Assembly: GCF_900105335.1 (NCBI RefSeq)
Contig: NZ_LT629770.1
Span: 1,612,001-1,676,000, forward strand
DNA length: 64,000 bases
Reading direction: 5' to 3'
Origin: Microbacterium paraoxydans
GTDB taxonomy: Bacteria > Actinomycetota > Actinomycetes > Actinomycetales > Microbacteriaceae
Shown here: piece after piece, positions 11,169 to 48,548 of the stretch
How positions within the stretch are numbered: position 1 is the stretch's first letter
How the letters are laid out: each line of letters opens with the position of its first letter
Program-made: the position numbers and the translations under genes
The notes under the pieces: generated by a model
Database searches by the model: none
What the model was told of the DNA's origin: nothing
Seen by the model: only the letters and a program-made list of their open reading frames with translations

Positions 11169-11236
11169 CGGAGAGCGCTAACGTGAAGGGCATCCGTCGT
11201 CCCGGCGGAGACCGTCGTCCCTCCAGGAGGCCGCAG

Positions 11237-12124: not shown

Positions 12125-12135
12125 CGGCGGCGGAC

Positions 12136-12945
12136 TCAGTCCGCGAGGGCCGTCGCGAGCGCACGCTCGTCGCCGCCGTCGCGCGGCGCGACGTGCAGGG
12201 TGCCGACGTGCGCGGCGAGCAGCTCCCGCGCGCCGTCGTCGAGGCCGTCGTCGGTGACGAGGCGGTCGATGTCGCTGAGGTCGGCCACGGTCGTGAGCCC
12301 GACCACGCCCCAGCGGGTGTGCTCCGCGAGGACGACGACCTCCCGGCCCGCGGCCATGAGCGCGCGATTGGTCTCGGCCTCCAGCAGGTTCATGGTCGTG
12401 ATGCCGGCCTGCTCGTCGAGGCCGTGGGCGTCGAGGAACACGAGGTCGCAGTGCAGGTGCTCGAGGGCGCGAACGGCGACCGGCCCGACGAGCGCCTGGG
12501 AGGGCGTGCGCACGCCCCCGGTGAGCACGACCGTCTGCGTGTACGGAGCGTCCGCGCGGTCCGGCGGCGAGAACAGGTCGGAGACCGGCAGAGCGTTCGT
12601 GACGATCGTGAGCTCCGGGACGCGCACGAGCTCCCTCGCGAGCGCCAGGGCCGTGGGTCCGCCGGAGATGCCGACCGCCATACCCGGCTCGACGAGGCCC
12701 GCGGCCGCCGCGACGATCGCCCGCCGTTCCGCCGAGGCCGCCGGAGCCGGAACCAGACGCTGGAGGCCCCGCGCCCGCACGCCGCCACGGATGCGCTCGA
12801 CCGCGCCCTCCTCGGCCAGCTGATCGACGTCGCGCCGCACCGTCATCTCGCTCACCTGCAGCGTGGCCGCGAGCTCGCCGATGGAGGCGGTACCGCGATC
12901 GCGGGTCAGGGCCAGGATGCGCTCGCGTCGTTCCGTGACCAGCAC
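12136..12945 (-). CDS. DeoR-family transcriptional regulator
   Basis: The protein has 269 residues from GTG at 12945, chosen because AAGGAG lies 5 nt upstream. An upstream ATG would add 18 residues without conservation. The N-terminal DeoR helix-turn-helix is ERRERILALTRDRG followed by IGELAATLQVSEMTVRRDVD (residues about 23-42). The rest is the sugar-phosphate-binding DeoRC sensor, with the phosphate-loop-type GISGGPTALALARELV. It is convergent with the truncated LacI gene (11 nt apart) and divergent from the esterase gene. It probably represses a sugar operon and is relieved by a phosphorylated intermediate. Confidence 0.92.
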   Translation of the reverse strand: MLVTERRERILALTRDRGTASIGELAATLQVSEMTVRRDVDQLAEEGAVERIRGGVRARGLQRLVPAPAASAERRAIVAAAAGLVEPGMAVGISGGPTALALARELVRVPELTIVTNALPVSDLFSPPDRADAPYTQTVVLTGGVRTPSQALVGPVAVRALEHLHCDLVFLDAHGLDEQAGITTMNLLEAETNRALMAAGREVVVLAEHTRWGVVGLTTVADLSDIDRLVTDDGLDDGARELLAAHVGTLHVAPRDGGDERALATALAD

Positions 12946-13025
12946 GCGGTCTCCTTCCGATGGAGCCTCCAGTCTGCCACGCACCCCAGCCCGCCCCACT
13001 CCCGGAACAGGACCCCTCAGCCCGC

Positions 13026-14000
13026 ATGACCTTCCCCGAGCCCTACGCCACCTGGTTCCCCGATGCCGCGTTCGACGGCAGCTACGGCCGCACCGAAGCC
13101 GACCTCCGCGCCGTCCGCCCCGTGCCCGCGCCGCCCGGTTTCGCCGACCGCTGGCGGCGCTGGCGGCGCGAGGCCGCCGCGGTGGACGCGGCCCCCGTCG
13201 TCCTCTCCACCTCCGAGGAGCAAGGCCGTCGGGTGTCCGTCGTCGAGCATGCCGGCGTCGACGGTGTGCGGCTGCGGGCCTGGGTGGTCGAGCCCCTCGA
13301 CGGCTCTCCCCGCGCGGGCGTCGTGCACGGCCACGGCTACGGGGGTCGCGACGCGGTCGATCTCGCCCGGGTGCCGGACGATGTGGCGGCGATCTATCCC
13401 GTGGCCCGCGGGCTCGGCGTGCTGAACGCGGGGATCGGAGCGCCCGAGCCGACCCCCGAGCACGTGCTCGCGGGCATCGACGACCCGGAGCGCTACGTGC
13501 TCGGCCTCTGCGCCCGTGACCTGTGGCTGGCGGCCGACGTCCTCGCCTCGGTCGTCGGCGCGCTTCCTCTCTACTACGTCGGGGAGAGCTTCGGCGGCGG
13601 CATCGGCGCGCTCGCCCTGCCGTGGGACGACCGGTTCGTGGGAGCCACCCTCATCGTGCCGAGCTTCGGCCAGTACGACGAACGGCTGGCGGTGCCGTGC
13701 CTGGGGAGCGGGGAGACCGTGCGTCAGCACGTCATGGGGAATCCCGAGGCCCGCGAGGTGCTGCGCTGGTTCGACTCCTCGACCGCGATCGGCTTCACGG
13801 AGGTGCCGGTCCGGGTGGAGGCGGCCCTGTGGGACCAGTACGTGCCGCCGCAGGGGCAGTTCGCGGTCGCCGCCGGGGCGCGCGATCTCGACCTCGCGGT
13901 CCTTCCCGCCGGTCACGCCGAGTACCCGGGGTCGGCGGACGTGACGGCGGGCGCCATCCGGGGCGGGCGCGAGCACCTGGAACGGGTGCTCGGCGGCTGA
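13026..14000 (+). CDS. Acetyl-xylan-esterase-like alpha/beta hydrolase
   Basis: The protein has 324 residues from ATG at 13026. It matches the AXE1/cephalosporin-C deacetylase family (PF05448): the N-terminus MTFPEPYATWFPDA is family-like, and the catalytic triad is probably Ser188 in GESFGGG, Asp270 (LWDQYVPP) and His297 (PAGHAEYPG). There is no signal peptide, so it acts on imported acetylated sugars in the cytoplasm. It is divergent from the DeoR gene (80 nt gap), a plausible target. Length matches the family. Exact substrate is not readable. Confidence 0.85.
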   Translation: MTFPEPYATWFPDAAFDGSYGRTEADLRAVRPVPAPPGFADRWRRWRREAAAVDAAPVVLSTSEEQGRRVSVVEHAGVDGVRLRAWVVEPLDGSPRAGVVHGHGYGGRDAVDLARVPDDVAAIYPVARGLGVLNAGIGAPEPTPEHVLAGIDDPERYVLGLCARDLWLAADVLASVVGALPLYYVGESFGGGIGALALPWDDRFVGATLIVPSFGQYDERLAVPCLGSGETVRQHVMGNPEAREVLRWFDSSTAIGFTEVPVRVEAALWDQYVPPQGQFAVAAGARDLDLAVLPAGHAEYPGSADVTAGAIRGGREHLERVLGG

Positions 14001-14048: not shown

Positions 14049-14064
14049 ACCTGTCATAACAGGT
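14049..14064. promoter_or_regulatory. Operator palindrome, site 1 upstream of the cupin isomerase operon
   Basis: ACCTGTCATAACAGGT is an almost perfect inverted repeat with the core TGTCATAACA. It lies 60 nt before the first gene of the six-gene operon. The same motif recurs at 14072, 32705, 32732, 48533 and 23391. It is probably a GntR/HutC-type site; the best local candidate is the regulator at 34184-34996. Confidence 0.7.
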
Positions 14065-14071: not shown

Positions 14072-14087
14072 GCTTGTCATTACAGGT
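14072..14087. promoter_or_regulatory. Operator palindrome, site 2 upstream of the cupin isomerase operon
   Basis: GCTTGTCATTACAGGT repeats the site-1 motif (core TGTCATTACA) 23 nt downstream, about two helical turns. Two dimers could bind side by side on one DNA face. Confidence 0.65.
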
Positions 14088-14123: not shown

Positions 14124-14699
14124 ATGCCCGAGTACCAGACCCCGCCGATCTCCCCGATGGCGATCGCCTTCGACGCCGAGAAGCTCACCCTCTCCCCCGA
14201 AGGCCCCACCCTGACCCGGCGGATGTCCGACCTCGAGGGCCTGTTCCGCGATCACGACGCCTGGGCGGCTGCCGCCGCGGGCGAGGACCCGATCGTCTAC
14301 ACGGTCGTCAGCTCCCCTGTCCCCGAGATCGAGCGGGAGCTGCCGCAGTCGATCACCACGATCATGCCCGGCGACACGGGCGGCGAGCTCTGGATGACCA
14401 AGGGCCACCAGCACCCCGACCATCAGGGCGAGATCTACCTCGCGCTGCACGGCCGCGGCGGACTGCTCATGTTCGACGGCGAGCGCACCGAGTGGCTCGA
14501 CATGCTCCCGGGCACCATCGGCTACATCCCGCCGGGCTGGGCGCACCGCTCCGTGAACACCGGGGACGAGCCCTACTCCTTCCTCGCGGTGTACCCGGGC
14601 GGCGCCGGCCACGACTACGGCTGGGTGCTGGAGCACGGCATGGGCTCGCGGGCATACCGCGCGGAGTCCGGCGTCGACCTGCGCCCCTACGCGGAATAG
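14124..14699 (+). CDS. Cupin-type phosphoglucose isomerase family protein
   Basis: The protein has 191 residues, the normal length for the metal-dependent archaeal-type cupin PGI (PF06560). The metal-binding cupin motif is visible: TKGHQHPDHQGEIY with His95, His97 and Glu103, and a fourth ligand His141 in PPGWAHRSVN. The family interconverts aldose and ketose 6-phosphates. A standard PGI should be encoded elsewhere, so this copy probably serves a dedicated sugar in this operon, perhaps on a different phosphorylated or free sugar. The first gene behind two operator palindromes; 9 nt before the kinase. Confidence 0.88.
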   Translation: MPEYQTPPISPMAIAFDAEKLTLSPEGPTLTRRMSDLEGLFRDHDAWAAAAAGEDPIVYTVVSSPVPEIERELPQSITTIMPGDTGGELWMTKGHQHPDHQGEIYLALHGRGGLLMFDGERTEWLDMLPGTIGYIPPGWAHRSVNTGDEPYSFLAVYPGGAGHDYGWVLEHGMGSRAYRAESGVDLRPYAE

Positions 14700-14708
14700 G
14701 CTCCGGCC

Positions 14709-16199
14709 ATGATCATCGCCCACGACCTCGGCACCACCGGGAACAAGGCGTCCCTGCACCACGACGACGGTCGCCTGATCGCCGCGGTCACCGTGCCGTA
14801 CCCGGCCCACTTCGCGGCCGGCGGCGTCGCCGAGCAGGACCCGGCCGACTGGTGGCACGCGGTCGTCACGGCGACCCGCGACCTCCTCGCGCGCACCGGC
14901 ACCGCCGCCGCCGAGGTCGCGGGCCTCGTGGTCAGCGGACAGATGATGGGCGCCGTGCTGCTCGACGCCGACGGCGAGCCCGCACGACCCGCGATCATCT
15001 GGGCGGACACCCGCGCCGGCGCCCAGCAGCGCGAGCTCGAGGCGGCGGTCGGCGCCGAGCGCGCCTACGGGATCCTCGGCCACCGCCTGAACCCCACCTA
15101 CTCCCTCGAGAAGATCATGTGGGTGCGCGACAACGAACCCGCGGTGTGGCAGCGCGTGCGCCGGGTGTGCGTCGCCAAGGACTTCATCGTGCTGCGGCTG
15201 ACCGGGCGGCTCGCCACGGACCGCTCGGACGCCTCGGGCACCAATGCGTACGACCAGGTCGCGGGCACGTGGTCGCCGGAGATCCTCGCGGCCGCGCGAC
15301 TCGATCCCGCCCTCTTCCCCGAGATCCTGGAGTCGACGCAGATCGCGGGCCCGCTCACGCCCGCCGCGGCCGAGGCGCTCGGGCTGCACACCGGCGTCCA
15401 GGTCGTGATGGGCGGGGGCGACGGACCGCTCGCCGCGGTCGGCTCCGGCGTCGTGGCGCCGGAGGACGGCGCCTACGTGTGCCTCGGCACCTCCTCGTGG
15501 ATCTCCTTCGCAGCGGACGCCCCGCTGCACGACCCCGCGATGCGCACCTTCACGTTCGACAACGTCGTGCCCGCGTCGTTCGTGCCGACCGCGACCATGC
15601 AGGCCGGCGGCGCCTCGGTGCAGTGGATCGCCGAAGCCCTCTCCGTCGACCCCGCGCACCCGGAGACGGGGCGCCTCGTCGCCGAGGCCGCGAGCGACAT
15701 CGACACCGACGACCTCTACTTCCTCCCCTACCTGCTCGGCGAGCGCTCCCCGCTGTGGGACCCGGATGCGCGCGGGGCCTTCGTCGGTCTCGCCCGCCAC
15801 CACGGGCGGGCCCACCTCGTGCGCGCGGTCCTGGAGGGGACGGCGTTCAACCTCCTCACCTGCATCCAGGCGTTCCGTGAGGCCGGCGCGACGATCGACC
15901 GCATCGACGCCGTCGGCGGCGGGGCGCAGAGCGACGTCTACCTCGCCGTCCTCGCCGACGTGTGGGGCGTGCCGGTGCGACGCCGCACGATCGTGGAGGA
16001 GGCGAACAGCCTCGGTGCCGCGGTCACGGGAGCCGTCGGCCTCGGCCTCACCGACTTCTCCGCCGCCCGCGCGCTCAGCGAGGTCACCGCCGAGTTCACG
16101 CCCGACCCGTCCCGGCATGCGGTCTACGCCGAGCGCCACGCCCGCTTCACCGACGCGTACGCTGCCCTCGCACCGTGGTTCGCCGGAAGGCCGCGCTGA
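14709..16199 (+). CDS. FGGY-family carbohydrate kinase (xylulokinase-like)
   Basis: The protein has 496 residues, full length for the family. The N-terminal phosphate loop is IAHDLGTTGNKASLH, followed by a substrate-side segment SGQMMGAVLLDADGEP. The C-terminal domain holds GGGDGPLAAVGSG and the FGGY signature region AVGGGAQSDVYLAVLADVWG. It phosphorylates a sugar or sugar alcohol in the cytoplasm; resemblance is closest to xylulokinase. The stop overlaps the next start (TGATG). The specific substrate cannot be read from sequence. Confidence 0.9.
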   Translation: MIIAHDLGTTGNKASLHHDDGRLIAAVTVPYPAHFAAGGVAEQDPADWWHAVVTATRDLLARTGTAAAEVAGLVVSGQMMGAVLLDADGEPARPAIIWADTRAGAQQRELEAAVGAERAYGILGHRLNPTYSLEKIMWVRDNEPAVWQRVRRVCVAKDFIVLRLTGRLATDRSDASGTNAYDQVAGTWSPEILAAARLDPALFPEILESTQIAGPLTPAAAEALGLHTGVQVVMGGGDGPLAAVGSGVVAPEDGAYVCLGTSSWISFAADAPLHDPAMRTFTFDNVVPASFVPTATMQAGGASVQWIAEALSVDPAHPETGRLVAEAASDIDTDDLYFLPYLLGERSPLWDPDARGAFVGLARHHGRAHLVRAVLEGTAFNLLTCIQAFREAGATIDRIDAVGGGAQSDVYLAVLADVWGVPVRRRTIVEEANSLGAAVTGAVGLGLTDFSAARALSEVTAEFTPDPSRHAVYAERHARFTDAYAALAPWFAGRPR

Positions 16200-17176
16200 T
16201 GGGCGTCATCCTCGTCACGAGCCGCTCCTTCTCGGACGGCGACCTCGACCTGGTCGGGCGCGCCGCGCAGGCCGGACACCGCATCCTCCGCGGCCCCGCC
16301 CACCACGACCTCGACGAGCTGCGCGTGCTGCTGCACGGCGCCGACGCCTGGATCGCCGGCACCGGACCGGTCACCGACGCGCACCTCGCCGCGGGCCCGA
16401 AGCTCAAGGTCGTGGCGCGCTACGGGGTCGGCACGGAGGCGGTGGACCTCGCGGCGGCGCGCGACCGTGGCATCCCGGTCACGAACACCCCCGGCGCGAA
16501 CGCGGATGCGGTCGCCGACCACGCGGTCGGCCTCATGCTCGCCGCTCTGCGCACCATCCCGGACGGCGACCGCCGCGTGCGGACCGGCGACTGGAGCGTC
16601 CGCCGCGGGCGGGAGCTCGGCGCCGCGACCGTCGGCATCGTCGGCTTCGGGCGGATCGGCCAGGGGGTCGCGCGGCGACTGAGTGGATTCGGCCCGCGGC
16701 TGCTCGCCTCCGACCCGTTCCTGCCCGCCGACCTCGTGCGGGACGGCGGCGCCGAACCCGTCACCCTCGACGACCTGTTCCGCACCGCCGATGTGATCAC
16801 CCTGCACGCCCCCGGCGGGCAGCAGCTCGTCGACGCCGACCGCCTCTCCGGGATGCGACCGGGGACCGTGCTCGTCAACACCGCCCGCGGCGACCTCGTG
16901 GACGAGCTGGCCGTGGCCGACGCGCTCCGCGACGGCATCCTCGCCGGGTACGCGGCCGACACGCTCGACGGCGACACCGCCGCGCACGACAGCCCCCTGC
17001 TCGCCGCGGACCTCGCCGACCGTGTCATCGTCACCCCGCACCTCGGCGCCCAGACCACCCAGGCCGTCGACAACATGGGGGCGCTGTCCCTCGACGACGT
17101 GATCGCGGTCCTCCGCGGCGCCGACCCCGCCCACCTCGTCCCCGTCCCCGCGTCCGCCCCCGAGGAGAACCGATGA
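16199..17176 (+). CDS. D-isomer-specific 2-hydroxyacid dehydrogenase-like protein (PGDH type)
   Basis: The protein has 325 residues from ATG at 16199, overlapping the kinase stop. The NAD-binding motif is VGIVGFGRIGQGVARR (about residues 142-157), with the family Arg in NTARGDLVDE and the catalytic His in VTPHLGAQT. In the segment that normally reads D-V-F-x-x-E-P, here it reads DTLDGD, so the usual catalytic glutamate appears replaced by aspartate. It should oxidise or reduce a 2-hydroxy/2-keto acid. The context (lactonase-like and shikimate dehydrogenase-like neighbours) suggests a sugar acid rather than 3-phosphoglycerate. Confidence 0.85.
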   Translation: MGVILVTSRSFSDGDLDLVGRAAQAGHRILRGPAHHDLDELRVLLHGADAWIAGTGPVTDAHLAAGPKLKVVARYGVGTEAVDLAAARDRGIPVTNTPGANADAVADHAVGLMLAALRTIPDGDRRVRTGDWSVRRGRELGAATVGIVGFGRIGQGVARRLSGFGPRLLASDPFLPADLVRDGGAEPVTLDDLFRTADVITLHAPGGQQLVDADRLSGMRPGTVLVNTARGDLVDELAVADALRDGILAGYAADTLDGDTAAHDSPLLAADLADRVIVTPHLGAQTTQAVDNMGALSLDDVIAVLRGADPAHLVPVPASAPEENR

Positions 17177-18123
17177 CCACCGCCGCGACGTCCGCCGCAC
17201 CGTCCGCCACCGCCGACTACATGGGCTTCGTCGGCGTCACCACCGCCTCGTCGTCGATCATGAAGGTGTTCCCGCTGTGGGCCGACATCCTCGGCCTCCC
17301 CACCCGGACCCTCGTCGGTCACGACCTGCCGATGGATGCCGACCCCGCCCAGTACCGCGCGATGGTCGAGCAGATCCGCGACGACCCGCACCACCGCGGC
17401 GCGCTGGTCACCACGCACAAGATGAACGTGTACGCGGCGGCGTCCGACCTGTTCGACGAGCTCGACCCGTTCGCCGTGTCCTGCGCCGAGATCTCCAGCA
17501 TCGCCAAGCGCGGGTCCACGCTGTCCGGCCGCGCGAAGGACCCGATCACGGTCGACCTGGCGCTGCGCGACTTCCTCCCCGCCGACCACTTCGCGCGCAC
17601 CGGTGCCGAGGTCGTCATCCTGGGTGCGGGCGGATCGGGCACCGCGCTGAGCTGGGCCCTCGCCGAGCGGGAGGATGCCCCGGCCCTCATCACCGTCACC
17701 GCGCGCACGCAGGACAAGCTCGACCACCTCCGCGAGGTGCACCGCCAGCACGGCACCCCCGAGGGACTCCTCCGCTACGTCGTCACCGAGACGCCGGAGG
17801 AGGCCGACGCCCTGGTCGCCGCCGCGCCCGCGGGATCGGTCATCGCGAACGCCACCGGGCTCGGCAAGGACCGCCCCGGCTCCCCGCTGACCGACGCCGT
17901 CGTGTTCCCCGAGGGCGCGTACGTGTGGGAGTTCAACTACCGCGGCTCCCTGGAGTTCCTGCACCAGGCCGAAGCACAGGAGGACGACCGCGGCCTGCAC
18001 GTGGTCGACGGCTGGCGGTACTTCATCCACGGCTGGTCGCAGGTCGTGGCGGACGTGTTCGACCTCGACCTCACGCCGGAGACCGTCGAGCGCCTCGCGG
18101 AGGCCGCGGAGTCGGTGCGCTGA
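17173..18123 (+). CDS. Shikimate dehydrogenase-like protein
   Basis: The protein has 316 residues; ATG at 17173 overlaps the upstream stop. It has the AroE layout: a substrate domain with the catalytic-Lys region ALVTTHKMNVY (Lys83), then a Rossmann domain with VVILGAGGSGTALSWAL (residues about 148-164). The usual shikimate-binding serine pair (SxS) may correspond to Ser26-Ser28 in TTASSSIMK. It differs from housekeeping AroE in sequence and context, which lacks aromatic-pathway genes. It is probably a dehydrogenase for another polyol or cyclic acid in this operon. Confidence 0.82.
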   Translation: MTTAATSAAPSATADYMGFVGVTTASSSIMKVFPLWADILGLPTRTLVGHDLPMDADPAQYRAMVEQIRDDPHHRGALVTTHKMNVYAAASDLFDELDPFAVSCAEISSIAKRGSTLSGRAKDPITVDLALRDFLPADHFARTGAEVVILGAGGSGTALSWALAEREDAPALITVTARTQDKLDHLREVHRQHGTPEGLLRYVVTETPEEADALVAAAPAGSVIANATGLGKDRPGSPLTDAVVFPEGAYVWEFNYRGSLEFLHQAEAQEDDRGLHVVDGWRYFIHGWSQVVADVFDLDLTPETVERLAEAAESVR

Positions 18124-19091
18124 TGCCCGCCGTGCGGACCGTCCTCGGCGACCTCGACCCGTCGCGGCTCGGTCGCGTGGACTACCACGAGCACCTCTTC
18201 CAGGTGTCGCCGCTGCTGGTCGGGGACGAGCTCGACGACGAGGCCGCGTCCGGCGAGGAGGCCGGTCTGCTGCGGGCGAGCGGCTTCGAGGCCATGGTCG
18301 ACGCCACCCCGTTCGGCCTCCGTCGGGACCCGGCCGCCGTCGCCCGCATCAGCGCCGCGACCGGACTGCACGTGGTCGCCACGACGGGTCGGCACCGTGA
18401 GGCCCACTACGGCCCCGACCACCCGATGCAGGTGTGGGGCGCGGACCGCCTCGCCGCCCTGTTCGTGTCCGACCTCACGCGGGGGATGCCGGCGGACGAC
18501 ACCGCGGTGTTCGAGACGCCCGACGTGCCTCTCGCCGCGGGTCCCGATGGGCAGCCCGTCCGCGCCGGCATGCTCAAGGGCGGGGCCGACTACTGGCGTC
18601 TCAGTCCGTTCGAGCGGACGACCCTCGTCGCCGTCGCTCAGGCGCACCGAGAGACCGGAGCCCCCGTCATGGTGCATCTGGAGTTCGGCACCGCGGCCCA
18701 CGAGGTCCTCGACCTGCTGGGGGCCGAGGGGGTGCCGGCGGATCGCGTCGTGCTGGCCCACGCCGACCGCGACCCCGACCCCGGTCTGCACGTCGCGTTG
18801 GCCGAGCGCGGTGCCCACCTCGGGTACGACGGCTTCGCCCGCCCGCGCACCCGCTCCGACGCAGAGCTGCTGGCCCTCACGGTCGCCGTGGTGGAGCGCG
18901 GCGCCGGTGACCGGATCCTGCTCGGGGGCGACGTCGCCCGCCGCACCCGATACATCGCGTACGGCGGCATGCCGGGTCTCGCCTACCTGGGCGACCGCTA
19001 CCTTCCGCGGCTCCGCGAGGCCGTGGGAGACGACGCCGTGCACCGCATGCTCGTGACGACGCCGGCGCTGTTCCTGACCCTCCGCCCCTGA
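18123..19091 (+). CDS. Phosphotriesterase-family (COG1735) metallohydrolase, probable sugar lactonase
   Basis: The protein has 322 residues; ATG at 18123 overlaps the upstream stop. All metal ligands of the family are present: His22 and His24 in YHEHLF, bridging Lys152 in GMLKGGADYW, His185 in MVHLEFG, His213 in LAHADRDP and Asp270 in LGGDVARR. Characterised COG1735 members of this type hydrolyse phosphorylated sugar lactones, such as lyxono- and ribono-lactone 5-phosphates. With a kinase and dehydrogenases in the same operon, hydrolysis of a sugar lactone or its phosphate is the best inference. True phosphotriesterase activity is unlikely as the physiological role. Confidence 0.88.
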   Translation: MPAVRTVLGDLDPSRLGRVDYHEHLFQVSPLLVGDELDDEAASGEEAGLLRASGFEAMVDATPFGLRRDPAAVARISAATGLHVVATTGRHREAHYGPDHPMQVWGADRLAALFVSDLTRGMPADDTAVFETPDVPLAAGPDGQPVRAGMLKGGADYWRLSPFERTTLVAVAQAHRETGAPVMVHLEFGTAAHEVLDLLGAEGVPADRVVLAHADRDPDPGLHVALAERGAHLGYDGFARPRTRSDAELLALTVAVVERGAGDRILLGGDVARRTRYIAYGGMPGLAYLGDRYLPRLREAVGDDAVHRMLVTTPALFLTLRP

Positions 19092-19114
19092 CCGCCCGAA
19101 CCCGAGGAGTCGTC

Positions 19115-19411
19115 ATGCCCGAACCCACCGTCCTCCACGCCGTCTTCACCGCGCAGCCGGGAGCCGCCGACCGGGTCGCCGCGCTGCTGCGGGACTTCGC
19201 CGAGGTGGTCCGCGCCGAGGAGGGCAACATGGTCTTCGACGCCCACCGCCTCGTCGACGACCCTGACCGCTTCTTCGTGTACGAGGTCTACCGCGACGAG
19301 GACGCCTTCCAGGCCCACCTGCACGCACCCGCCGGCATCCCCTTCAACGCTGCCCTGCAGGAGCTCATCGTCGAGCCCACCTCGATCCTGACCTTCCTCC
19401 GCCCCCTCTGA
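19115..19411 (+). CDS. ABM-fold (YgiN/LsrG-like) small protein
   Basis: The protein has 98 residues, a single antibiotic-biosynthesis-monooxygenase domain (PF03992). The core RAEEGNMVFDAHRLVDDPDR followed by FFVYEVYRDEDAFQAHL is typical. Some members are quinol monooxygenases (YgiN), and LsrG isomerises phosphorylated autoinducer-2. In sugar operons such proteins are often isomerases or ligand-handling proteins. It lies 23 nt after the lactonase gene with a GAGGAG ribosome site, and is the last gene of the operon. Confidence 0.85.
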   Translation: MPEPTVLHAVFTAQPGAADRVAALLRDFAEVVRAEEGNMVFDAHRLVDDPDRFFVYEVYRDEDAFQAHLHAPAGIPFNAALQELIVEPTSILTFLRPL

Positions 19412-19577: not shown

Positions 19578-20579
19578 TCACTCGTAGAGGACCGCGGCGA
19601 TCTTGTCGTCCTCGATGTTGTTCTTGTCGTACCAGTAGGAACCGGTGTCGTAGAACTCCTCGACGTCGTCCCCGTTGGCCGCGTCGTAGGCCGCCTGCAC
19701 GACCTGGGCGCCGATGCCGATCGGGTCCTGCGTGATGGCGCCGGCCATGGTGCCGTCCTTGATGGCGTTGATCTGGGCCGCACCGGAGTCGAAGCCGACG
19801 ATGGTGATCTTGCCCTTCTCGAGGCCGAGCTCGTTCACGGCGTTCACGACGCCGATGGCCGAACCCTCGTTGGTGCCGTAGATGCCCTTGAGGTCGGGGT
19901 GGGCCGCGATGAGCGTCTTGGCGATGTCGGCCGACTTCAGGTGGTCGCCGTCACCGTACTGGATGTCGACGATCTCGATGTCGGGGTAGTCCGCCTCGAT
20001 CTTCTCGACGAAGCCGTCGCGACGCTCGACACCCGTCGAGTTGATCTGCGAGTGGCCGACGATGGCGACCTCGCCCTCGCCGCCGATCAGCTCGGCCATG
20101 TGCTCGGCCGCCAGCGCGCCGGCGACCTTGCTGTCCGTCGCGGAGAGGCTGAGTCCGACGTCGCCGTTGCACGGGGCGTCGAAGTAGACGACGGGGATGT
20201 CCTTCGACTTCGCCTGCTCGAGCGGGGCGACGCACGCCTCGGGGTCGAGGGCGGCGTAGGCGATGGCGTCCGGGTTCTTGTCGATCGCGGCGGTCAGCAT
20301 CTCGAGCTGCTGCGCGATCTCGGTCTCGGCGGCCGGGCCCTCGAAGGTGATCTTGACGCCCAGCTCCTGGGCCTTCTCCTCGGCGCCCTTCTTGACGGCC
20401 TGCCAGAACTGGTGCTGGAAGCCCTTCGAGACCATGGCGATGTACATCTCGCCGTCGCCGCTGCCGGTGTCGCTGCCCGAGCCCTCTTCGATCACGTCGC
20501 CGCCGCCGGCACAGCCGGCGAACACGAGCGCGGATGCGGCCACGAGTGCCGCGAATGCGGTCTTCTTGCCGAATTTCAT
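19578..20579 (-). CDS. Ribose-type sugar-binding lipoprotein (Peripla_BP_4)
   Basis: The protein has 333 residues from ATG at 20579. An in-frame upstream start was rejected because the signal peptide begins here: MKFGKKTAFAALVAASALVF, then the lipobox FAGC. The mature part is a family 4 periplasmic sugar-binding fold, with ribose-type signature segments YAALDPEACVAPLEQAKSK and IYGTNEGSAIGVVNAVNEL. It delivers a pentose, hexose or similar sugar to the CUT2 importer encoded upstream. The closest catabolic genes on this strand suggest a ketose or L-fucose; the substrate is not settled. Confidence 0.92.
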   Translation of the reverse strand: MKFGKKTAFAALVAASALVFAGCAGGGDVIEEGSGSDTGSGDGEMYIAMVSKGFQHQFWQAVKKGAEEKAQELGVKITFEGPAAETEIAQQLEMLTAAIDKNPDAIAYAALDPEACVAPLEQAKSKDIPVVYFDAPCNGDVGLSLSATDSKVAGALAAEHMAELIGGEGEVAIVGHSQINSTGVERRDGFVEKIEADYPDIEIVDIQYGDGDHLKSADIAKTLIAAHPDLKGIYGTNEGSAIGVVNAVNELGLEKGKITIVGFDSGAAQINAIKDGTMAGAITQDPIGIGAQVVQAAYDAANGDDVEEFYDTGSYWYDKNNIEDDKIAAVLYE

Positions 20580-20714: not shown

Positions 20715-21749
20715 TCAGGTCCGCTGGCGGTTGCGCAGCGAGTCGAGGAAGACGGCCAGCAGGACGACGACGCCGACGACGATGTTCTGCCATTCGGGCT
20801 GGATCGACATGATGCGTAGGCCGTTGACGAGGACGCTCATGATGAGCGCGCCGATCACGGTGCCGAGGATCGAGCCGCGGCCGCCGAGCAGCGAGGTGCC
20901 GCCGATGATCACGGCCGCGATGGCCTGCAGCTCGTAGCCGGTGCCGATCTGCGGCTGGGCCGAGTCGAGGCGGGCGGCGATCACGATGCCCGCGATGCCG
21001 GTGAAAGCGCCGGCGAACATGTAGATGAGGATCGTCCAGCGACGGGTGTTGACGCCGGAGAGGCGCGTGGCCTCCTCGTTCGATCCGATCGCGAACGTGT
21101 AGCGGCCGAGCAGCGTCTTCGACAGCACGAGCCAGGCGACGATCGCGAGGGCCGCGGTGATGAGCACGGCGTTCGGGATGCCGGGGATGAGCACGCCGAG
21201 CGCGATCTTCTTGAAGTCGGGAGCCGAAGTCGAGAAGTAGATCGGCGCGACGTTCGAGATGACGAGGGCGAGGCCGCCGGCGATCATCATCATGGCCAGC
21301 GTCGCGATGAACGGAGGCAGCCGCAGGAACGTGATGTTGACGCCGTTCACCAGGCCCATGAGCACACCGGTCGCGATGCCGCCGAGCACACCGACCCACA
21401 CGGGCAGGCCCATGTTGGTGATGAGGACACCCGTCATCACGGCGCAGAGCGCCATGCCGGTGCCGATCGACAGATCGATGCCGCCCGTGATGATGACGAA
21501 CGTCGTGCCGAGGGCGAGGATGCCGATGACCGCGGTCGACAGCAGCACGGTGGCGATGTTGCTGAAGGTGAAGAAGTTCGGGCTGGCGATCGAGAAGAAG
21601 ATGACCAGGACGATCAGGGTGCCGAACGCGAGCGACTGCTGGAACTGCCGCTTGAGGAACCCGGCGACGTCGCGCTTGTCGGTGTCCTCGTTGACGGCCG
21701 TCTGGATGATCGTCGTCGTCGACGATCCGGACTGCTGTGGGGTGCTCAT
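20715..21749 (-). CDS. Ribose-type ABC transporter permease (RbsC-like)
   Basis: The protein has 344 residues from ATG at 21749, which overlaps the ATPase stop. It has the BPD_transp_2 fold with eight to ten membrane segments; the conserved cytoplasmic loop is GSNEEATRLSGVNTRRWTIL (about 230-249). A hydrophilic N-terminal tail of about 35 residues (MSTPQQSGSSTTTIIQTAVN) precedes the first segment. It functions as a homodimer with the ATPase. A single permease gene is usual for CUT2 systems. Confidence 0.93.
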   Translation of the reverse strand: MSTPQQSGSSTTTIIQTAVNEDTDKRDVAGFLKRQFQQSLAFGTLIVLVIFFSIASPNFFTFSNIATVLLSTAVIGILALGTTFVIITGGIDLSIGTGMALCAVMTGVLITNMGLPVWVGVLGGIATGVLMGLVNGVNITFLRLPPFIATLAMMMIAGGLALVISNVAPIYFSTSAPDFKKIALGVLIPGIPNAVLITAALAIVAWLVLSKTLLGRYTFAIGSNEEATRLSGVNTRRWTILIYMFAGAFTGIAGIVIAARLDSAQPQIGTGYELQAIAAVIIGGTSLLGGRGSILGTVIGALIMSVLVNGLRIMSIQPEWQNIVVGVVVLLAVFLDSLRNRQRT

Positions 21750-23251
21750 CAGTCTTCCTCCCCGTGGGCTGCGAGTTGCATGATCTTCTCCTGGCTGGCT
21801 TCCTCGTTGCGGAGCGTCCCGGTGATGCGGCCGTTCGCGAACACGGCGATGCGGTTCGCGACCCGGAGGATCTCGGGGAGCTCGGACGAGATGACGATGA
21901 TGGACTTGCCCGCGTCGGCGAGCTGCTGCATGAGGCGGTAGATCTCCTCCTTCGCGCCGACGTCGATGCCTCGCGTCGGCTCGTCGAAGATGAGGATGTC
22001 GCAGTCGCGCATCAGCCACCGGGCGATGACGACCTTCTGCTGGTTCCCTCCGGAGAGGAGCTTGACGACCTGGTTGACCGAGGGGGTCTTCACCCGCAGC
22101 TGCTGAACGTACTCCTTGGTGCGGTTCTTGGCCTTGCTGTCGCCCATCCACCCGATGCCGTTGGCGTAGGAGCCGAGCGACGCGAGCACGGTGTTGAAGG
22201 TGACGTCCTGCTCGAGCATGAGGCCGAGCAGCTTGCGGTCCTCGGAGAGGTAGCCGACGCCGTGCTTGACCGCGTCCGCGGGCTGCGCGATGCGGACCGT
22301 GCGCCCGCCGATCGTGATCGTGCCGCCGTCGCGGTGGTCCGCGCCGATGACGGCACGGGCGGTCTCGGTGCGGCCGGCGCCCATGAGGCCGGCGAATCCG
22401 AGGATCTCGCCCTTGTGGAGCTGGAACGACACGTCCTTGAGGAGCTTCCGCGTGGACAGCCCCTGCACGTCGAGCACGATCGGGTCGTTGAGGTGCTCCC
22501 GGGCCTGCGGGCGGGTGCCCTCGTCGATCACGCGGCCGACCATCATCTCGATGATCGTCGGGATCGTGATCTCGGACTTGTCGAGTGATCCGATGTATGT
22601 GCCGTCGCGGAGGACGGTCACCCGGTCCGCCAGGCGGCGCAGCTCGTCCATCCGGTGCGAGATGTACACGATGCCGGTGCCGCGGGCCTTGAGCTGCTCG
22701 ATGAGGACGAAGAGGGTCTCGACCTCGCTGTCGGTGAGGGCCGACGTCGGCTCGTCCATGATGAGGACCTTGGCGTTGAAGGACAGCGCCTTGGCGATCT
22801 CGACCATCTGCTGCTCGGCCACCGTCAGCTCGCCCACGCGCTGGCGGGGGTCGAGGTGGATGTCCAGGCGCTGCAGCAGCTCGGCCGTCTGCCGGTTGAG
22901 CTTCCGCTCCGACAGGAACGGGCCCGTCGTGGGCTCGCGGCCGACGTAGATGTTCTGCGCGACCGTGAGGTCGGGCATCAGGTTGAGCTCCTGGTGGATG
23001 ATCGTGATCCCCAGCTCCTGCGCCTGCAGCGGGCTGGTGAGCTCGACCTCCTGCCCCTCGAACGTGATCGTGCCCTCGTCCTTGGTGTAGATCCCGGAGA
23101 GGATCTTCATCAGGGTGGACTTGCCGGCACCGTTCTCACCCACGAGCACGAGCACCTCGCCGGCGCGCACCTCGAGATGCACGTCCTTCAGCGCCTGGAC
23201 ACCGGGGAATCCCTTGCTGATCCCCTCGACCCTCAGGATGGGTCCACTCAT
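21749..23251 (-). CDS. Ribose-type ABC transporter ATP-binding protein (RbsA-like, two ABC domains)
   Basis: The protein has 500 residues with two nucleotide-binding domains, as in RbsA/MglA. The first half has Walker A GENGAGKSTLMK (about 38-49), signature LTVAEQQMVEIAKAL and Walker B VLIMDEPTSAL. The second half has signature LSGGNQQKVVIARWL and Walker B ILIFDEPTRGID, but its Walker A is degenerate (GLMGAGRTETAR), which is normal for this family. First gene of a minus-strand importer operon; the 178 nt upstream holds possible operators. Confidence 0.95.
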   Translation of the reverse strand: MSGPILRVEGISKGFPGVQALKDVHLEVRAGEVLVLVGENGAGKSTLMKILSGIYTKDEGTITFEGQEVELTSPLQAQELGITIIHQELNLMPDLTVAQNIYVGREPTTGPFLSERKLNRQTAELLQRLDIHLDPRQRVGELTVAEQQMVEIAKALSFNAKVLIMDEPTSALTDSEVETLFVLIEQLKARGTGIVYISHRMDELRRLADRVTVLRDGTYIGSLDKSEITIPTIIEMMVGRVIDEGTRPQAREHLNDPIVLDVQGLSTRKLLKDVSFQLHKGEILGFAGLMGAGRTETARAVIGADHRDGGTITIGGRTVRIAQPADAVKHGVGYLSEDRKLLGLMLEQDVTFNTVLASLGSYANGIGWMGDSKAKNRTKEYVQQLRVKTPSVNQVVKLLSGGNQQKVVIARWLMRDCDILIFDEPTRGIDVGAKEEIYRLMQQLADAGKSIIVISSELPEILRVANRIAVFANGRITGTLRNEEASQEKIMQLAAHGEED

Positions 23252-23390: not shown

Positions 23391-23406
23391 ACCTGTAATA
23401 ACATCT
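23391..23406. promoter_or_regulatory. TGT-N4-ACA operator-like site near the importer operon
   Basis: ACCTGTAATAACATCT contains the core TGTAATAACA and one full half-site (ACCTGT) of the palindrome found at 14049 and 32705. It is 140 nt upstream of the importer ATPase gene and just beyond the end of the epimerase gene. Confidence 0.45.
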
Positions 23407-23429: not shown

Positions 23430-24299
23430 TCAGTGGAGGCGGATCGAATCGACGGCGACGATCTTGTCGCGGATGTAGGCGTTCGCGTGCGCACCCAGCT
23501 CGTCGTTGTCGGTCCAGAGGTTGCGCCAGATGCCGAGCATGCGGCTGAGGTCGGGCGCGACCACGGCCGAGGAGAACGACTCGAACACGATGGGGCCGTC
23601 GTAGCCGATGCGCCCGAGCGCCTTGAAGAACGTGTCGAAGTCGACCGTCCCGGTGCCGAGATAGCCGCGGTGGCTCTCGCCGATGTGCACGTACCGCAGG
23701 GCGGGAGCCGCATCGAGCACCGGCGCGAACATATCCGACTCCTCGATGTTCATGTGGTACGTGTCCAGGTGGATGCCGAGGTTCGGGCGGTCGACCTCGC
23801 CGAGGTACGCCAGCGCCTGGCGTGCGGTGTTCAGCACGTTGGTCTCGTAGCGGTTCACGACCTCGAGCGAGACGGAGACTCCCCGCTCGGCGGCGTGGTC
23901 GGCGACCCGCGCGATGGTGCGACGACTCGATGCCAGACCCTCCGGCGTCACCGGATCCATGTACTTCTTCATGGCGCTGTAGATCACCCCGCAGAAGTGC
24001 GTACCGCCGAGCTCGGCGAGCACGTCGACCGCGCGGAGCAGGAGCGCCTCGCCCGCGGCGACCACGGCGGGGTCGCCGCTGGTGATGTCGGTCTCGTCGG
24101 AGAGCCCGAGCGAGGCGCTGACCGCGAGTCCGTGCTCCGCGAGGGCGGCCTGGGCGGCGGCGACGTCGAACGAGAACGGGTCCATGAGCGGGAACTCGAT
24201 GAGGTCGAAGCCCGCCTGCTTCGTCTTCTCGACCGCGAGCCGGATGCCGTCCGCGTCGAAGGTCCCCGTCCAGACGAGTCCGTGGCAGCCGATGTTCAT
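23430..24299 (-). CDS. Ketose 3-epimerase (D-tagatose/D-psicose 3-epimerase family)
   Basis: The protein has 289 residues, the family length, from ATG at 24299 (GAGGAGC ribosome site). TIM-barrel metal ligands are visible: Glu146 (SLEVVNRYETN), Asp179 (GIHLDTYHMNIEE), His210 (HIGESHRGYLGTG) and Glu240 (VFESFS), the same spacing as in D-tagatose 3-epimerase. It epimerises a free ketohexose or ketopentose at C3. It is divergent from a LacI regulator that shares two operators with it, and co-directional with the downstream sugar importer, so import then epimerisation is plausible. Confidence 0.88.
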   Translation of the reverse strand: MNIGCHGLVWTGTFDADGIRLAVEKTKQAGFDLIEFPLMDPFSFDVAAAQAALAEHGLAVSASLGLSDETDITSGDPAVVAAGEALLLRAVDVLAELGGTHFCGVIYSAMKKYMDPVTPEGLASSRRTIARVADHAAERGVSVSLEVVNRYETNVLNTARQALAYLGEVDRPNLGIHLDTYHMNIEESDMFAPVLDAAPALRYVHIGESHRGYLGTGTVDFDTFFKALGRIGYDGPIVFESFSSAVVAPDLSRMLGIWRNLWTDNDELGAHANAYIRDKIVAVDSIRLH

Positions 24300-26004: not shown

Positions 26005-26029
26005 GGCGGCTCCTCTCGGTGGACGGACG

Positions 26030-28280: not shown

Positions 28281-28323
28281 GGGGTTCCTCTCCATGCGCG
28301 GGTCGTTCTTCCACGCGGATCTC

Positions 28324-28357
28324 TTGGAGTGTAAACATCCGATGTCTATACTGTCAA
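28324..28357. promoter_or_regulatory. Overlapping divergent promoters with one shared operator (L-fucose genes)
   Basis: Plus-strand promoter: TTGGAG (28324-28329), 17 nt, TATACT (28347-28352). Minus-strand promoter: TTGACA (28357-28352), 18 nt, TACACT (28333-28328). The two promoters occupy the same 34 bp, facing each other. The palindrome ACATCCGATGT (28335-28345) lies in both spacers at once. One bound repressor dimer should therefore close both the dehydratase operon and the hydrolase/dehydrogenase operon. The boxes are read directly; the repressor is inferred to be the FCD protein at 31341. Confidence 0.75.
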
Positions 28358-32022: not shown

Positions 32023-32685
32023 TCAGGCCCCGAGGCGCTGCATCGCCGCGTCGAACTCCGCCGCCGAGCTGTCACTCACCTCGTGGAACAGCAGCTGGTC
32101 GAGCACGTCGGGCGCGGCGGTGAAGTAGGGCACCCCGGCTGCGCGCAGCCCCGTGATGTCGTCGGCGGAGCGCAGCGATGCGGCGAGGACGTTGGAGCCG
32201 CTGCCCGCGCACATCTCCTGCATCCGGGCGATGAGCGCGTCGCCGTCCATGCCCGCGTCGCGCATGCGTCCGAGGTAGGGCGCGATGTACTGGGCGCCGA
32301 TCGAGGCGCACGCGAGCGCCTGCGCGACGGAGTACACCGCGGTGACGAGGACCGTGGCCCCGTCGCGGACGAGGGCCGAGGCCGCCGCGAAACCCGCTGC
32401 GGTCGCGGGCACCTTGACCGCCACCCGGTCGCCGAGCGCGCGGATGCCCTCCGCGTTCCGGAGGAAGGAGTCCGGGTCGCCGCCCCACGTCTGGAAGAAG
32501 ACCTCCCGTGCGCCCTCGTCCACCCAGCGGGCATAGAGGTCGGGGATCTCCGCGGCCGTCCGCCCGCCGCGCTCGAGGATCGTGGGGTTCGTCGTGACGC
32601 CGTGCACCACCCCGGCGGAGAGGAGCCGCGAGACGCGGTCGGAGTCGGCGCTGTCGACGTACAGGCGGGGCGCGATCGCGGTCAT
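32023..32685 (-). CDS. Transaldolase-family protein (FSA/TalC-like)
   Basis: The protein has 220 residues, the size of fructose-6-phosphate aldolase/TalC-type small transaldolases. Motifs: RLYVDSADSDRVSRLL, HGVTTNPTILERGG and the Schiff-base lysine in VAVKVPAT, then GAQYIAPYLGRMRDAG. It performs aldol cleavage or transfer on a sugar phosphate. It is divergent from ribokinase/RbsD across a gap with two TGT-N4-ACA operators, so the two sides are probably co-regulated. It is convergent with the FCD regulator (4 nt apart). Confidence 0.9.
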   Translation of the reverse strand: MTAIAPRLYVDSADSDRVSRLLSAGVVHGVTTNPTILERGGRTAAEIPDLYARWVDEGAREVFFQTWGGDPDSFLRNAEGIRALGDRVAVKVPATAAGFAAASALVRDGATVLVTAVYSVAQALACASIGAQYIAPYLGRMRDAGMDGDALIARMQEMCAGSGSNVLAASLRSADDITGLRAAGVPYFTAAPDVLDQLLFHEVSDSSAAEFDAAMQRLGA

Positions 32686-32704: not shown

Positions 32705-32720
32705 ACCTGTCGTTACAGGT
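32705..32720. promoter_or_regulatory. TGT-N4-ACA operator 1 in the transaldolase/ribokinase gap
   Basis: ACCTGTCGTTACAGGT is a near-perfect palindrome, differing from the 14049 site at two central positions. It lies 20 nt before the transaldolase start. Confidence 0.7.
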
Positions 32721-32802: not shown

Positions 32803-33765
32803 ATGACACCCGCACACCCCGGCGACCGCTCCGGCGTCGTCATCGTCGGCAGCGTGACGGCCGACGTCACGACCTTCTCCCAGCGGCTCCCCGCCCGCGG
32901 CGAGACCATCCTCGGCGACGAATTCACGCTGATGCTCGGCGGCAAGGGCGCGAACCAGGCTGTCGCGGCCGGACGCTCCGGAGCCCGCACGAGCTTCGTC
33001 GGCTGCGTCGGCGACGACCTGTTCCACGACCTCGTGGTGGACGGGCTCACGGCGGCCGGCGTCGACCTCGCACACCTGCGCACCGTGCCGGGCCCGACCG
33101 GCATCGCGCACATCCGTGTCGACGCCTCCGCGCAGAACGACATCGTCATGGTGCCGCTCGCCAACGCCGCCCTCAGCACGGCGCAGATCGACGAGGCCCT
33201 CGCGGCTCTCGCCCCGACGACCTCCGTCCTGCTCACCCAACTCGAGACCCCGTCCGCGCTGACCGCGCACATCACCGCGCGCGGTCGCGAGCACGGGATG
33301 ACCGTGATCCTCGACCCGGCACCGGCGGCGGAGCTGGCACCGGAGATCTGGCGCAGCATCGACATCGTCACCCCGAACGAGACCGAGGCGTCGCTCATCA
33401 GCGACATCGAGGTGACCGACGCCACCTCCGCCGAACGCGCCGGGCACTGGTTCCTGGAGCAGGGCGTGGGCGCCGCGGTCATCACCCTGGCCGGGCAGGG
33501 GTCGTGCGTCGTCACCGCCGAGGGGGCCACCGTCGTCCCGCCGTTCCCCGTGGAGGCCGTCGACACCACCGCCGCGGGCGACGCCTACGCCGGCTACCTC
33601 GGTGCCGCGCTCGCGAGCGGAGCGGCCCTCACCGATGCGGTGCGGCTGGCGACCGCCGCGGGCGCCCTCACCGTCACGAAGCAGGGGGCCTCGCCGAGCC
33701 TCCCCCACCGCGCCGACGTCGAGGCCTTCCTCGCCGCGCGCACCGCGGCCCCCGTCGCGAACTGA
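32803..33765 (+). CDS. PfkB-family sugar kinase (ribokinase-like)
   Basis: The protein has 320 residues; ATG at 32803 follows AGGAGCGAG. The ribokinase signatures are MLGGKGANQAVAAGRSGART (signature 1) and DTTAAGDAYAGYLGAAL (signature 2, catalytic Asp in AAGDA). It phosphorylates a pentose or related sugar. It is the first gene of a kinase-RbsD-regulator operon. Although ribose is the default guess, the regulator's shared operators with a non-ribose operon leave the substrate open. Confidence 0.92.
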   Translation: MTPAHPGDRSGVVIVGSVTADVTTFSQRLPARGETILGDEFTLMLGGKGANQAVAAGRSGARTSFVGCVGDDLFHDLVVDGLTAAGVDLAHLRTVPGPTGIAHIRVDASAQNDIVMVPLANAALSTAQIDEALAALAPTTSVLLTQLETPSALTAHITARGREHGMTVILDPAPAAELAPEIWRSIDIVTPNETEASLISDIEVTDATSAERAGHWFLEQGVGAAVITLAGQGSCVVTAEGATVVPPFPVEAVDTTAAGDAYAGYLGAALASGAALTDAVRLATAAGALTVTKQGASPSLPHRADVEAFLAARTAAPVAN

Positions 33766-33779: not shown

Positions 33780-34184
33780 ATGCGCAAGACCTCGACCACG
33801 ATCAACCCGGCGCTCTCCCGCGTCATCAGCGAGACCGGGCACACCGATCTGATCGTCGTGACCGACGCCGGGCTGCCCATCCCGCCGGGCTCCGAGCGCA
33901 TCGACCTCGCCTACCGTCCCGGCGCCCCCGCCTTCCTCGACGTGCTCGACACGGTGCTCGCGGAGCTCGTGGTCGAGGGGGCGACGGTGTCGGCCGAGGT
34001 CGCCGAGAAGAGCCCGGAGGTGCTCGACGCCCTGCGCGAGCGCTTCGCCGACGCAGGCTTCGAGATCGAGCTCGTCCCGCACGTCGAGTTCAAGGAGCGC
34101 ACGCACGCCGCCCGCGCCTTCGTGCGCTCGGGGGAGTTCACCCCCTACGCGAACGTGATCCTGCACGCGGGGGTGGCGTACTGA
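33780..34184 (+). CDS. rbsD: RbsD-family sugar pyranase
   Basis: The protein has 134 residues from ATG at 33780 behind CCAGGAG. The RbsD catalytic His21 is in ETGHTDLIVVTDAGLPIPPG, and the C-terminal YANVILHAGVAY is family-like. It speeds interconversion of pyranose and furanose anomers before phosphorylation by the kinase encoded 14 nt upstream. The stop overlaps the regulator start (TGATG). Confidence 0.92.
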   Translation: MRKTSTTINPALSRVISETGHTDLIVVTDAGLPIPPGSERIDLAYRPGAPAFLDVLDTVLAELVVEGATVSAEVAEKSPEVLDALRERFADAGFEIELVPHVEFKERTHAARAFVRSGEFTPYANVILHAGVAY

Positions 34185-34996
34185 TGTCTCTCATCGAGGA
34201 TGCGATCGACCGCCACAGCGCGGCGCCGATGTACGACCAGCTCCGGCAGCTCATCATCGACGGCATCGCCCGCGACGGTCTGCAGCCGGGCGATCCGCTT
34301 CCCGGCGAGCACCGGCTGTGCGAGCGCTACGGCATCTCCCGCACGGTCGTGCGCCAGGCGCTCGCCCAGCTCGAGCACGAGGGACTCGTCGAGCGCGTGA
34401 AGGGCAAGGGCACGTTCGTCTCCCGCCCGCGCACGAGCGAGAGTCTCGTGCACACGCTGGTCGGGCTGTACGACGACGTCGAGCGGCGCGGCGGCCACGT
34501 GCACAGCGACGTCCTCCGGCACGAGCAGACCGTCGCCGACGAGGAGGTCGCCCTCGCCCTGGAGGTGCCGGTGGGATCGCCGGTGATCGTGCTGGAGCGG
34601 CTGCGGCACGTGGACGGCGAGCCCTGGTCGCTCTCGACCACGTGGATGCCGGAGGCCGTGGGGGCGGTGACGCTCGGCGCCGACCTCACCGAGGCGTCGC
34701 TGTACCGGCTGCTCGCCGACCACGGCATCATCGCCACGCACGGCGTCCGCTCCGCCGAGGCGACGGTCGCCACGCACGAGCAGGCCCAGCACCTCGGCGT
34801 GAGCGCCGGCTCCGCCCTCCTCCGCCTGCGCAGCATCAGCCGCAGTGAGGACGGCCTGCCGATCGAGTACTTCATCGCGTACCACCGCGGCGACCGCTCG
34901 CGCTTCGAGTTCCAGCTCCAGCAGGAGCAGTCCCAGGCGTCGCTGATGCACGTGGACGGATCGGGCGGCGCCTCCCCCGCGGGCACGGTGGGCTGA
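34184..34996 (+). CDS. GntR/HutC-family regulator (UTRA domain)
   Basis: The protein has 270 residues. Winged-helix DNA-binding domain at about 15-80: [20 protein letters not shown], then [16 protein letters not shown] effector domain follows ([20 protein letters not shown], then [15 protein letters not shown]). HutC-type regulators bind palindromes of the TGT-N4-ACA form, and two such sites precede its own operon; further sites are at 14049, 14072, 48533 and 23391. It is therefore the best candidate to control the kinase/RbsD operon, the transaldolase gene and the six-gene operon at 14.1 kb. The link is inference. Confidence 0.9.
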
Positions 34997-48532: not shown

Positions 48533-48548
48533 ACTTGTAATTACAAGT
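48533..48548. promoter_or_regulatory. Operator palindrome upstream of the KDPG aldolase gene
   Basis: ACTTGTAATTACAAGT is a perfect 16-bp palindrome with the core TGTAATTACA, matching the TGT-N4-ACA sites at 14072 and 32732. It is 46 nt before the aldolase start and may overlap its -35 region (TTGTAA). Confidence 0.7.

Follow-up and report, generated by a model that had tools for sequence, protein, structure and literature searches.

We analysed a 64,000-nucleotide stretch of the Microbacterium paraoxydans genome (contig NZ_LT629770.1; positions 1612001-1676000 of a single-contig genome of 3.55 Mb), called the window below, and in particular an operon of six open reading frames (ORFs), one of which encodes a shikimate-dehydrogenase-like protein, here named AroEL. 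Lengths are given in amino acids (aa).

14124..14699, plus strand: cupin-type phosphoglucose isomerase (PGI; PF06560), 191 aa; from Pfam and comparison with archaeal PGI
14709..16199, plus strand: FGGY carbohydrate kinase, 496 aa; FGGY_N and FGGY_C, above the xylulokinase model cut-off
16199..17176, plus strand: NAD-type D-2-hydroxyacid dehydrogenase (PGDH-like), 325 aa; 2-Hacid_dh
17173..18123, plus strand: AroEL, shikimate-dehydrogenase-like protein, 316 aa; weak AroE-model matches, predicted fold, invariant K83 and D123
18123..19091, plus strand: PTE-family (COG1735-type) hydrolase, 322 aa; PTE model, best solved relative 3pnz
19115..19411, plus strand: ABM-family protein, 98 aa, an optional member; ABM model, 65.7 bits

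The intergenic spacings are, in order, +9, -1, -4, -1 and +23 bp. A preliminary description of this DNA reported six packed genes with overlapping starts and stops behind two operators; all ORFs were recovered at the positions given there, with three overlapping junctions, and the operators correspond to palindromes at 14050-14063 and 14073-14086. On balance we favour the view that this operon is the principal component of a catabolic regulon, serving an Entner-Doudoroff-like route built of non-orthologous enzymes, whose reactions, order, regulator and substrate we infer.

The distribution of the gene set among genomes was analyzed. Searches at E <= 1e-10 located AroEL in 25 of the 199 family genomes, including the window's own, and at E <= 1e-30 in 9 of 396 genomes of the phylum. 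A scan of named loci covered the best 80 of at least 579 AroEL relatives and leans to close relatives. AroEL was called in 77 of these 80 loci (27 from Microbacterium and 50 others, namely 32 from other Actinomycetota and 18 from other phyla), L119, L124 and L130 being dropped. Neighbours were counted within 10 kb of AroEL, and the counts are lower bounds owing to contig ends. The cupin, FGGY and 2-hydroxyacid dehydrogenase genes together accompany AroEL in 26 of 27 Microbacterium loci, 23 of 32 loci from other Actinomycetota and 5 of 18 from other phyla; for a PTE-family or UlaG-like protein the corresponding figures are 27/27, 28/32 and 6/18. As controls, two flanking genes gave 10/27 in Microbacterium and 0/50 elsewhere (AXE1), and 8/27 and 1/50 (DeoR). 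The order as well as the sequence of the operon genes is conserved in many genomes. Because of these neighbour counts, set against the flanking controls, the cupin PGI, FGGY, D-2-hydroxyacid dehydrogenase, AroEL and PTE genes form a conserved unit, and ABM lies outside it. The preliminary description had counted ABM as part of the set and would have been contradicted by six genes not kept together: five of them do recur together, and ABM is sporadic (13/27 Microbacterium loci, 0/50 other loci, 1/24 in the family sample) and has to be removed from the set. In two Spongiactinospora loci (L103 and L107) and two Verrucomicrobiales loci (L132 and L134), AroEL homologues lie apart from the core cluster and have different neighbours in common, so the family occurs in more than one setting.

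To describe the regulon we list the operators of the window together with the candidate regulator and an aldolase gene lying downstream.

14050..14063, no strand: operator 1 of the operon, CCTGTCATAACAGG; kept ahead of the cupin gene in 25/26 Microbacterium loci
14073..14086, no strand: operator 2 of the operon, CTTGTCATTACAGG; operator-like palindrome
23392..23405, no strand: degenerate operator before the transporter, CCTGTAATAACATC, 2 mismatches; palindrome match
32706..32719, no strand: operator between the transaldolase-family and PfkB genes, CCTGTCGTTACAGG; palindrome match
48534..48547, no strand: operator before the Eda gene, CTTGTAATTACAAG; palindrome match
34184..34996, plus strand: GntR/UTRA regulator; 60% identity to the GntR gene just ahead of the operon in L090
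48594..49232, plus strand: Eda-type aldolase (2-keto-3-deoxy-6-phosphogluconate (KDPG)/2-keto-4-hydroxyglutarate (KHG) type), 212 aa; eda model, 80% identity to the in-operon copy of L082

The palindrome CYTGTNNNNACARG was looked for in the 250 bp upstream of the cupin gene. It was present in 25 of 26 loci from Microbacterium (all 26 allowing one mismatch), in 14 of 23 named loci from other Actinomycetota (16 with one mismatch) and in 6 of 20 loci of the family sample (11 with one mismatch), and in 0 of 11 loci from other phyla. The reversed pattern used as a control was found at 0/26, 0/23, 1 and 0 loci respectively. In some Microbacterium the cupin and kinase genes point in opposite directions and the operator lies ahead of both, and in a Chloroflexi locus (L125) a perfect operator lies ahead of the GntR gene of the cluster. 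The pre-transporter operator is exact in 5 of 25 Microbacterium loci and has at most one mismatch in 11. At the genome scale a narrower pattern, CYTGTMATNACARG, picked after the sites had been viewed, gave 3-8 strand matches per genome in 11 genomes, as against 1 + 1 control matches in one genome. The operon is probably under a GntR/UTRA repressor, and the protein encoded at 34184-34996 is the likely regulator binding the operator. An operator match was also observed ahead of a short-chain dehydrogenase/reductase (SDR) gene at C1:2386063 of the window's genome (G000), and ahead of the orthologous gene in the close relative G618 (L154 site 7064, L222 site 2049); this gene is a possible further regulon member.

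The Eda-type aldolase is a seventh member of the set, displaced here and absent from the preliminary description. It exceeds the cut-off of TIGR01182 (191.3 bits for 156.05), and its start codon lies 46 bp downstream of the operator CTTGTAATTACAAG. An Eda gene is near AroEL in 29 of the 50 non-Microbacterium named loci and in only two of the 27 from Microbacterium (L082 and L106). In the first of these, Microbacterium sp. 8M, the operon itself includes Eda, flanked by PTE and ABM, and the transporter, epimerase, transaldolase-family and PfkB genes follow within the same 21 kb. A search of the genome with the Eda copy of L037 gave one match, at 48594-49232, 29 kb from the operon. An exact operator directly ahead of Eda was also found in G594, G622, G624, G629 and G630, that is in 5 of the 10 other operon-bearing genomes (6 of 11 with the window's own), a count that covers the Eda locus of these six genomes out of the 11. 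The aldolase at 48594 suggests how the route ends.

The individual enzymes were compared with family models and solved structures. The cupin PGI passes PF06560 (70.8 bits, cut-off 20.7) and matches the Pyrococcus/Thermococcus enzymes 1x82, 2gc0 and 4luk at 148 bits; residues aligned with the metal and phosphate ligands of Pyrococcus PGI are kept. Unlike these archaeal relatives, it belongs to a catabolic regulon, and its bacterial host carries a PGI gene of its own besides. The FGGY kinase passes the xylulokinase XylB model TIGR01312 (390.8 bits, cut-off 380.25). In the D-2-hydroxyacid dehydrogenase the Rossmann motif and the catalytic Arg and His are kept. The PTE-family hydrolase passes PF02126 (138.2 bits, cut-off 22.4). 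Among solved structures it comes nearest, at 144 bits, to 3pnz, the phospholactonase Lmo2620, a phospho-furanose lactonase of COG1735 that is not known to have a pathway role. The HxH, Lys, His, His and Asp motifs align with the metal ligands of 3pnz, and cationic residues occupy the phosphate site. There the two proteins differ, since K242, K244, R275 and Y278 of 3pnz align to R240, R242, R273 and R276, all four positions being Arg in the operon protein. The earlier statement that catalytic residues are present in the isomerase and the hydrolase holds for metal and catalytic residues, as aligned with the reference enzymes.

AroEL has no Pfam match. Its matches to AroE models are weak (best 39.1 bits for a cut-off of 252), and it fails the shikimate dehydrogenase model TIGR00507 (32.1 bits, cut-off 200.2). 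An AlphaFold2 model built from a 26-row alignment (predicted local distance difference test, pLDDT, 93.7) matched shikimate/quinate dehydrogenases, with 3toz first (E 4.6e-17); the search gave 199 matches at E <= 0.001, of which the best 50 were covered. As predicted from this model, AroEL belongs to the shikimate/quinate dehydrogenase (AroE) fold. K83 and D123 are invariant in 26/26 rows of the alignment and, as read from the motifs, would be the counterparts of the AroE catalytic Lys and Asp. The nearest named sequences are from Microbacterium (98% identity), and the profile alignment with the genome's own AroE proteins is only partial. Among the solved relatives, the 5-ketofructose reductase of Gluconobacter (7col, 7cok) has a shikimate-dehydrogenase fold and, by its name, acts on a sugar, with 18% identity to the AroEL model. 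It is one of about 50 similar-scoring matches listed, and on such evidence is not an AroEL orthologue. A housekeeping role for the operon was considered and rejected, the genome carrying two other AroE-family genes, both also under the TIGR00507 cut-off, and a separate gene scoring barely above the PGI model cut-off (22.9 bits for 22), whose neighbours were named by eye as transaldolase-like and Zwf-like.

The proposed route would run as follows. An RbsB-type ABC transporter would import a ketose or related sugar, the FGGY kinase would place a terminal phosphate on it, and the cupin PGI would interconvert ketose phosphate and aldose phosphate. AroEL would then act on the cyclic aldose phosphate, oxidising it at C1 and so yielding a phospholactone, which the PTE-family protein, or a UlaG-like protein in some lineages, would open to a phosphoaldonate. 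The D-2-hydroxyacid dehydrogenase would oxidise the C2 hydroxyl of this phosphoaldonate to give a 2-keto acid, and the Eda-type aldolase would cleave the latter to glyceraldehyde-3-phosphate and pyruvate, or hydroxypyruvate if C3 bears a hydroxyl. In shikimate the oxidised carbon stands 1,3 to the carboxylate-bearing carbon; because C1 and C5 of a pyranose 6-phosphate have the same 1,3 relation, AroEL could accommodate the phosphate in its carboxylate pocket while oxidising C1. A lactone intermediate is favoured because two unrelated lactonase-type folds, PTE and UlaG-like, adjoin one dehydrogenase. The cupin PGI, the kinase and the RbsB-type transporter seem a better fit to a neutral sugar or ketose as substrate than to a sugar acid or lactone, the lactone being an intermediate. 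The preliminary description had imagined an undescribed co-regulated sugar route (kinase, dehydrogenases, lactonase-type hydrolase) drawing an aldolase and a transaldolase from one regulon; the same operator at the Eda and transaldolase-family genes bears this out, with the reactions still conjectural. If true, the route would give a role to a shikimate-dehydrogenase-like group that has no assigned function in the sources consulted, and to one clade of COG1735 hydrolases. It might do the same for a type of ketose 3-epimerase that is used in industry, since one such gene belongs to the regulon or adjoins it and may offer a clue to what these enzymes do in nature. The genes that share the operator are those expected to respond to an inducing sugar, and the pathway proteins are, by family, small and soluble.

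The succession hexose phosphate, phospholactone, phosphoaldonate and 2-keto acid, ended by an Eda-type split, is that of the Entner-Doudoroff pathway, whereas the dehydrogenase, lactonase and isomerase of the operon come from other families. The 6-phosphogluconate dehydratase Edd (TIGR01196) exceeded its cut-off of 708.25 bits in 0 of 11 operon-bearing genomes, the best score (250.1) being at the level of IlvD-type relatives. No description of this gene combination was found among the matches listed in open-access literature, most subscription papers being outside the search. In a term search of an FGGY kinase paper (PMC3245297) the words shikimate, phosphotriesterase, lactonase and Actinobacteria had 0 occurrences and aldolase 1.

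Sugar genes neighbouring the operon or sharing its operator are listed here.

19578..20579, minus strand: RbsB-type sugar-binding protein; family models
20715..21749, minus strand: sugar ABC permease; ORF, conserved neighbour
21749..23251, minus strand: sugar ABC ATPase; ORF, conserved neighbour
23430..24299, minus strand: ketose 3-epimerase (TIM barrel), 289 aa; 528 bits to 5zfs
32023..32685, minus strand: transaldolase/fructose-6-phosphate aldolase family protein; 123 bits, cut-off 246
32803..33765, plus strand: ribokinase-like PfkB kinase; 287.7 bits, ribokinase cut-off 299.65
33780..34184, plus strand: D-ribose pyranase (RbsD) family protein; 151.7 bits, cut-off 93

The best solved matches of the RbsB-type protein are sugar-binding proteins naming differing sugars, and are not decisive for its ligand. 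The ketose 3-epimerase is a close relative of 5zfs, presumably the D-allulose-3-epimerase of Arthrobacter globiformis M30 (528 bits over 289 aa), and scores 162.9 bits with the D-psicose 3-epimerase model, whose cut-off is 300. It is near AroEL in 25/27 Microbacterium and 8/50 other loci; no account of its part in such a regulon was found among the matches listed in open-access literature.

One exact operator was found directly ahead of an unlinked aldo-keto reductase gene, 0.58 Mb away in the window's genome. The reductase is present at E <= 1e-80 in 54 of 59 genomes of the genus, and the operator was looked for at 30 of these 54 loci. Nine carry it (8 exact, 1 with one mismatch), and all nine fall among the 11 genomes whose AroEL is at least 81% identical to the window's (9/11, G611 and G624 being without the site). 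The other 19 genomes have no operator there (0/19), and in four of them the best AroEL match is distant (46-53%). The association with a close AroEL gives a Fisher p of 3.8e-6, uncorrected for kinship. Two genomes, G603 and G612 (the latter 83% complete), have reductases 94% and 92% identical to the window's and lack both AroEL and the operator.

Several observations weigh against the Entner-Doudoroff-like route. The scheme offers no step for the transaldolase-family, PfkB, RbsD, epimerase and ABM members. Beyond the Actinomycetota, just the 5 of 18 loci counted above combine AroEL with the three-gene core, and several AroEL genes stand without it. The PTE-family hydrolase is far under the phospho-furanose lactonase model NF045706 (97.9 bits for 630), as are the UlaG-like proteins under the UlaG model (38.8 and 18.8 bits for 306). 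In the D-2-hydroxyacid dehydrogenase the catalytic Glu is replaced by Asp in the window and in L036, most other rows having Glu. Lastly, a loose operator pattern, CYTGTNRTNACARG with one mismatch, showed no genome-wide enrichment (11 + 10 matches versus 13 + 13 for the reversed control).

The identity of the sugar separates two variants of the route. The substrate could be a rare ketose bearing a C3 hydroxyl (allulose, tagatose, sorbose or a pentulose) entering via the 3-epimerase, with the aldolase giving hydroxypyruvate and glyceraldehyde-3-phosphate, or with one member acting as a cryptic dehydratase. The likeness of the epimerase to 5zfs, its conservation in Microbacterium and the RbsB-type binding protein speak for this variant, which we nevertheless find doubtful: Eda-type aldolases are pyruvate enzymes, the core contains no dehydratase family, and complete clusters with their own transporter exist without an epimerase in L096, L108, L110, L116 and L117. 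The substrate could instead be a 3-deoxyketohexose, for example 3-deoxyfructose formed from 3-deoxyglucosone by the co-regulated aldo-keto reductase, from which six enzymes would lead to KDPG, then pyruvate and glyceraldehyde-3-phosphate, with no dehydratase. The argument is one of mass balance: if both dehydrogenases are oxidative and Eda yields pyruvate, two oxidations and a lactone hydrolysis ending in KDPG need C6H12O5 deoxy at C3, a 3-deoxyhexulose or 3-deoxyhexose. The failure of Edd to reach its cut-off in any of the 11 genomes and the Eda score above the eda cut-off agree with this. Reduction of 3-deoxyglucosone to 3-deoxyfructose is a reaction of the aldo-keto reductase class, and this substrate would explain why the reductase gene bears the operator. 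Yet the epimerase kept next to the transporter acts on a C3 hydroxyl, under-cut-off proteins of the IlvD/Edd family are present in 11/11 genomes, an enolase-superfamily dehydratase-like gene lies at 26985-28295, and no bacterial 3-deoxyfructose pathway was found among the matches listed in open-access literature; we regard a 3-deoxyketohexose as rather unlikely. The boldest form of this proposal, a widespread, undescribed catabolism of 3-deoxyketohexoses (3-deoxyglucosone/3-deoxyfructose class) in which the AroE-fold enzyme would be an aldose-6-phosphate 1-dehydrogenase and KDPG would arise without a dehydratase, strikes us as equally unlikely.

The co-regulated genes might also be several small sugar-scavenging modules under one regulator rather than one pathway. 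RbsD and the ribokinase-like PfkB do resemble a ribose module, and the transaldolase-family protein and the epimerase are left over by the main scheme, but the cupin-FGGY-PGDH-AroEL-PTE genes lie close together and reappear in other genomes as one block, which makes this improbable. Processing of autoinducer-2 by an Lsr-like system, finally, is hardly credible and was rejected. The FGGY kinase, ABM and RbsB-type binding protein belong to families also found in Lsr, with a weak LsrG-model match; the curated scores are however far from reached (LsrK 166.3 bits for 528, LsrG 32.9 for 135, LsrB 76.9 for 384), ABM is not conserved, and Lsr systems are not known to include AroE, PTE, PGI or Eda proteins.

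Besides the operon itself, some related arrangements were observed. The UlaG-like proteins (UlaG being the L-ascorbate-6-phosphate lactonase) have a metallo-beta-lactamase fold unlike that of PTE and adjoin AroEL in some lineages; none is encoded in the window's operon. They are near AroEL in L135 and L136, and the same sequence cluster includes proteins of L121 and those beside the second AroELs of L057, L060 and L061. These second AroEL and UlaG-like pairs (L057:15055-15975, L060, L061:9574-10494) have split transketolase genes in their vicinity, together with an FGGY gene resembling glycerol kinase, and perhaps represent a sister pathway. A DeoC-family aldolase lies inside the AroEL cluster of L111, L135 and L136, the copy of L135 being over the deoC cut-off. 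Upstream of the operon, the region 8907-14000 contains LacI-type and DeoR-type regulators, an AXE1-like esterase and a large oxidoreductase-like gene, which show no conservation with the operon outside Microbacterium (AXE1 0/50). Downstream, the region 25585-31293 holds genes named, in part from family scans, as FucU, aldo-keto reductase, enolase-superfamily, SDR and amidohydrolase-type. Such genes often accompany the AroEL cluster in Microbacteriaceae and Geodermatophilaceae, and together they resemble an L-fucose-type pathway of the non-phosphorylated kind.

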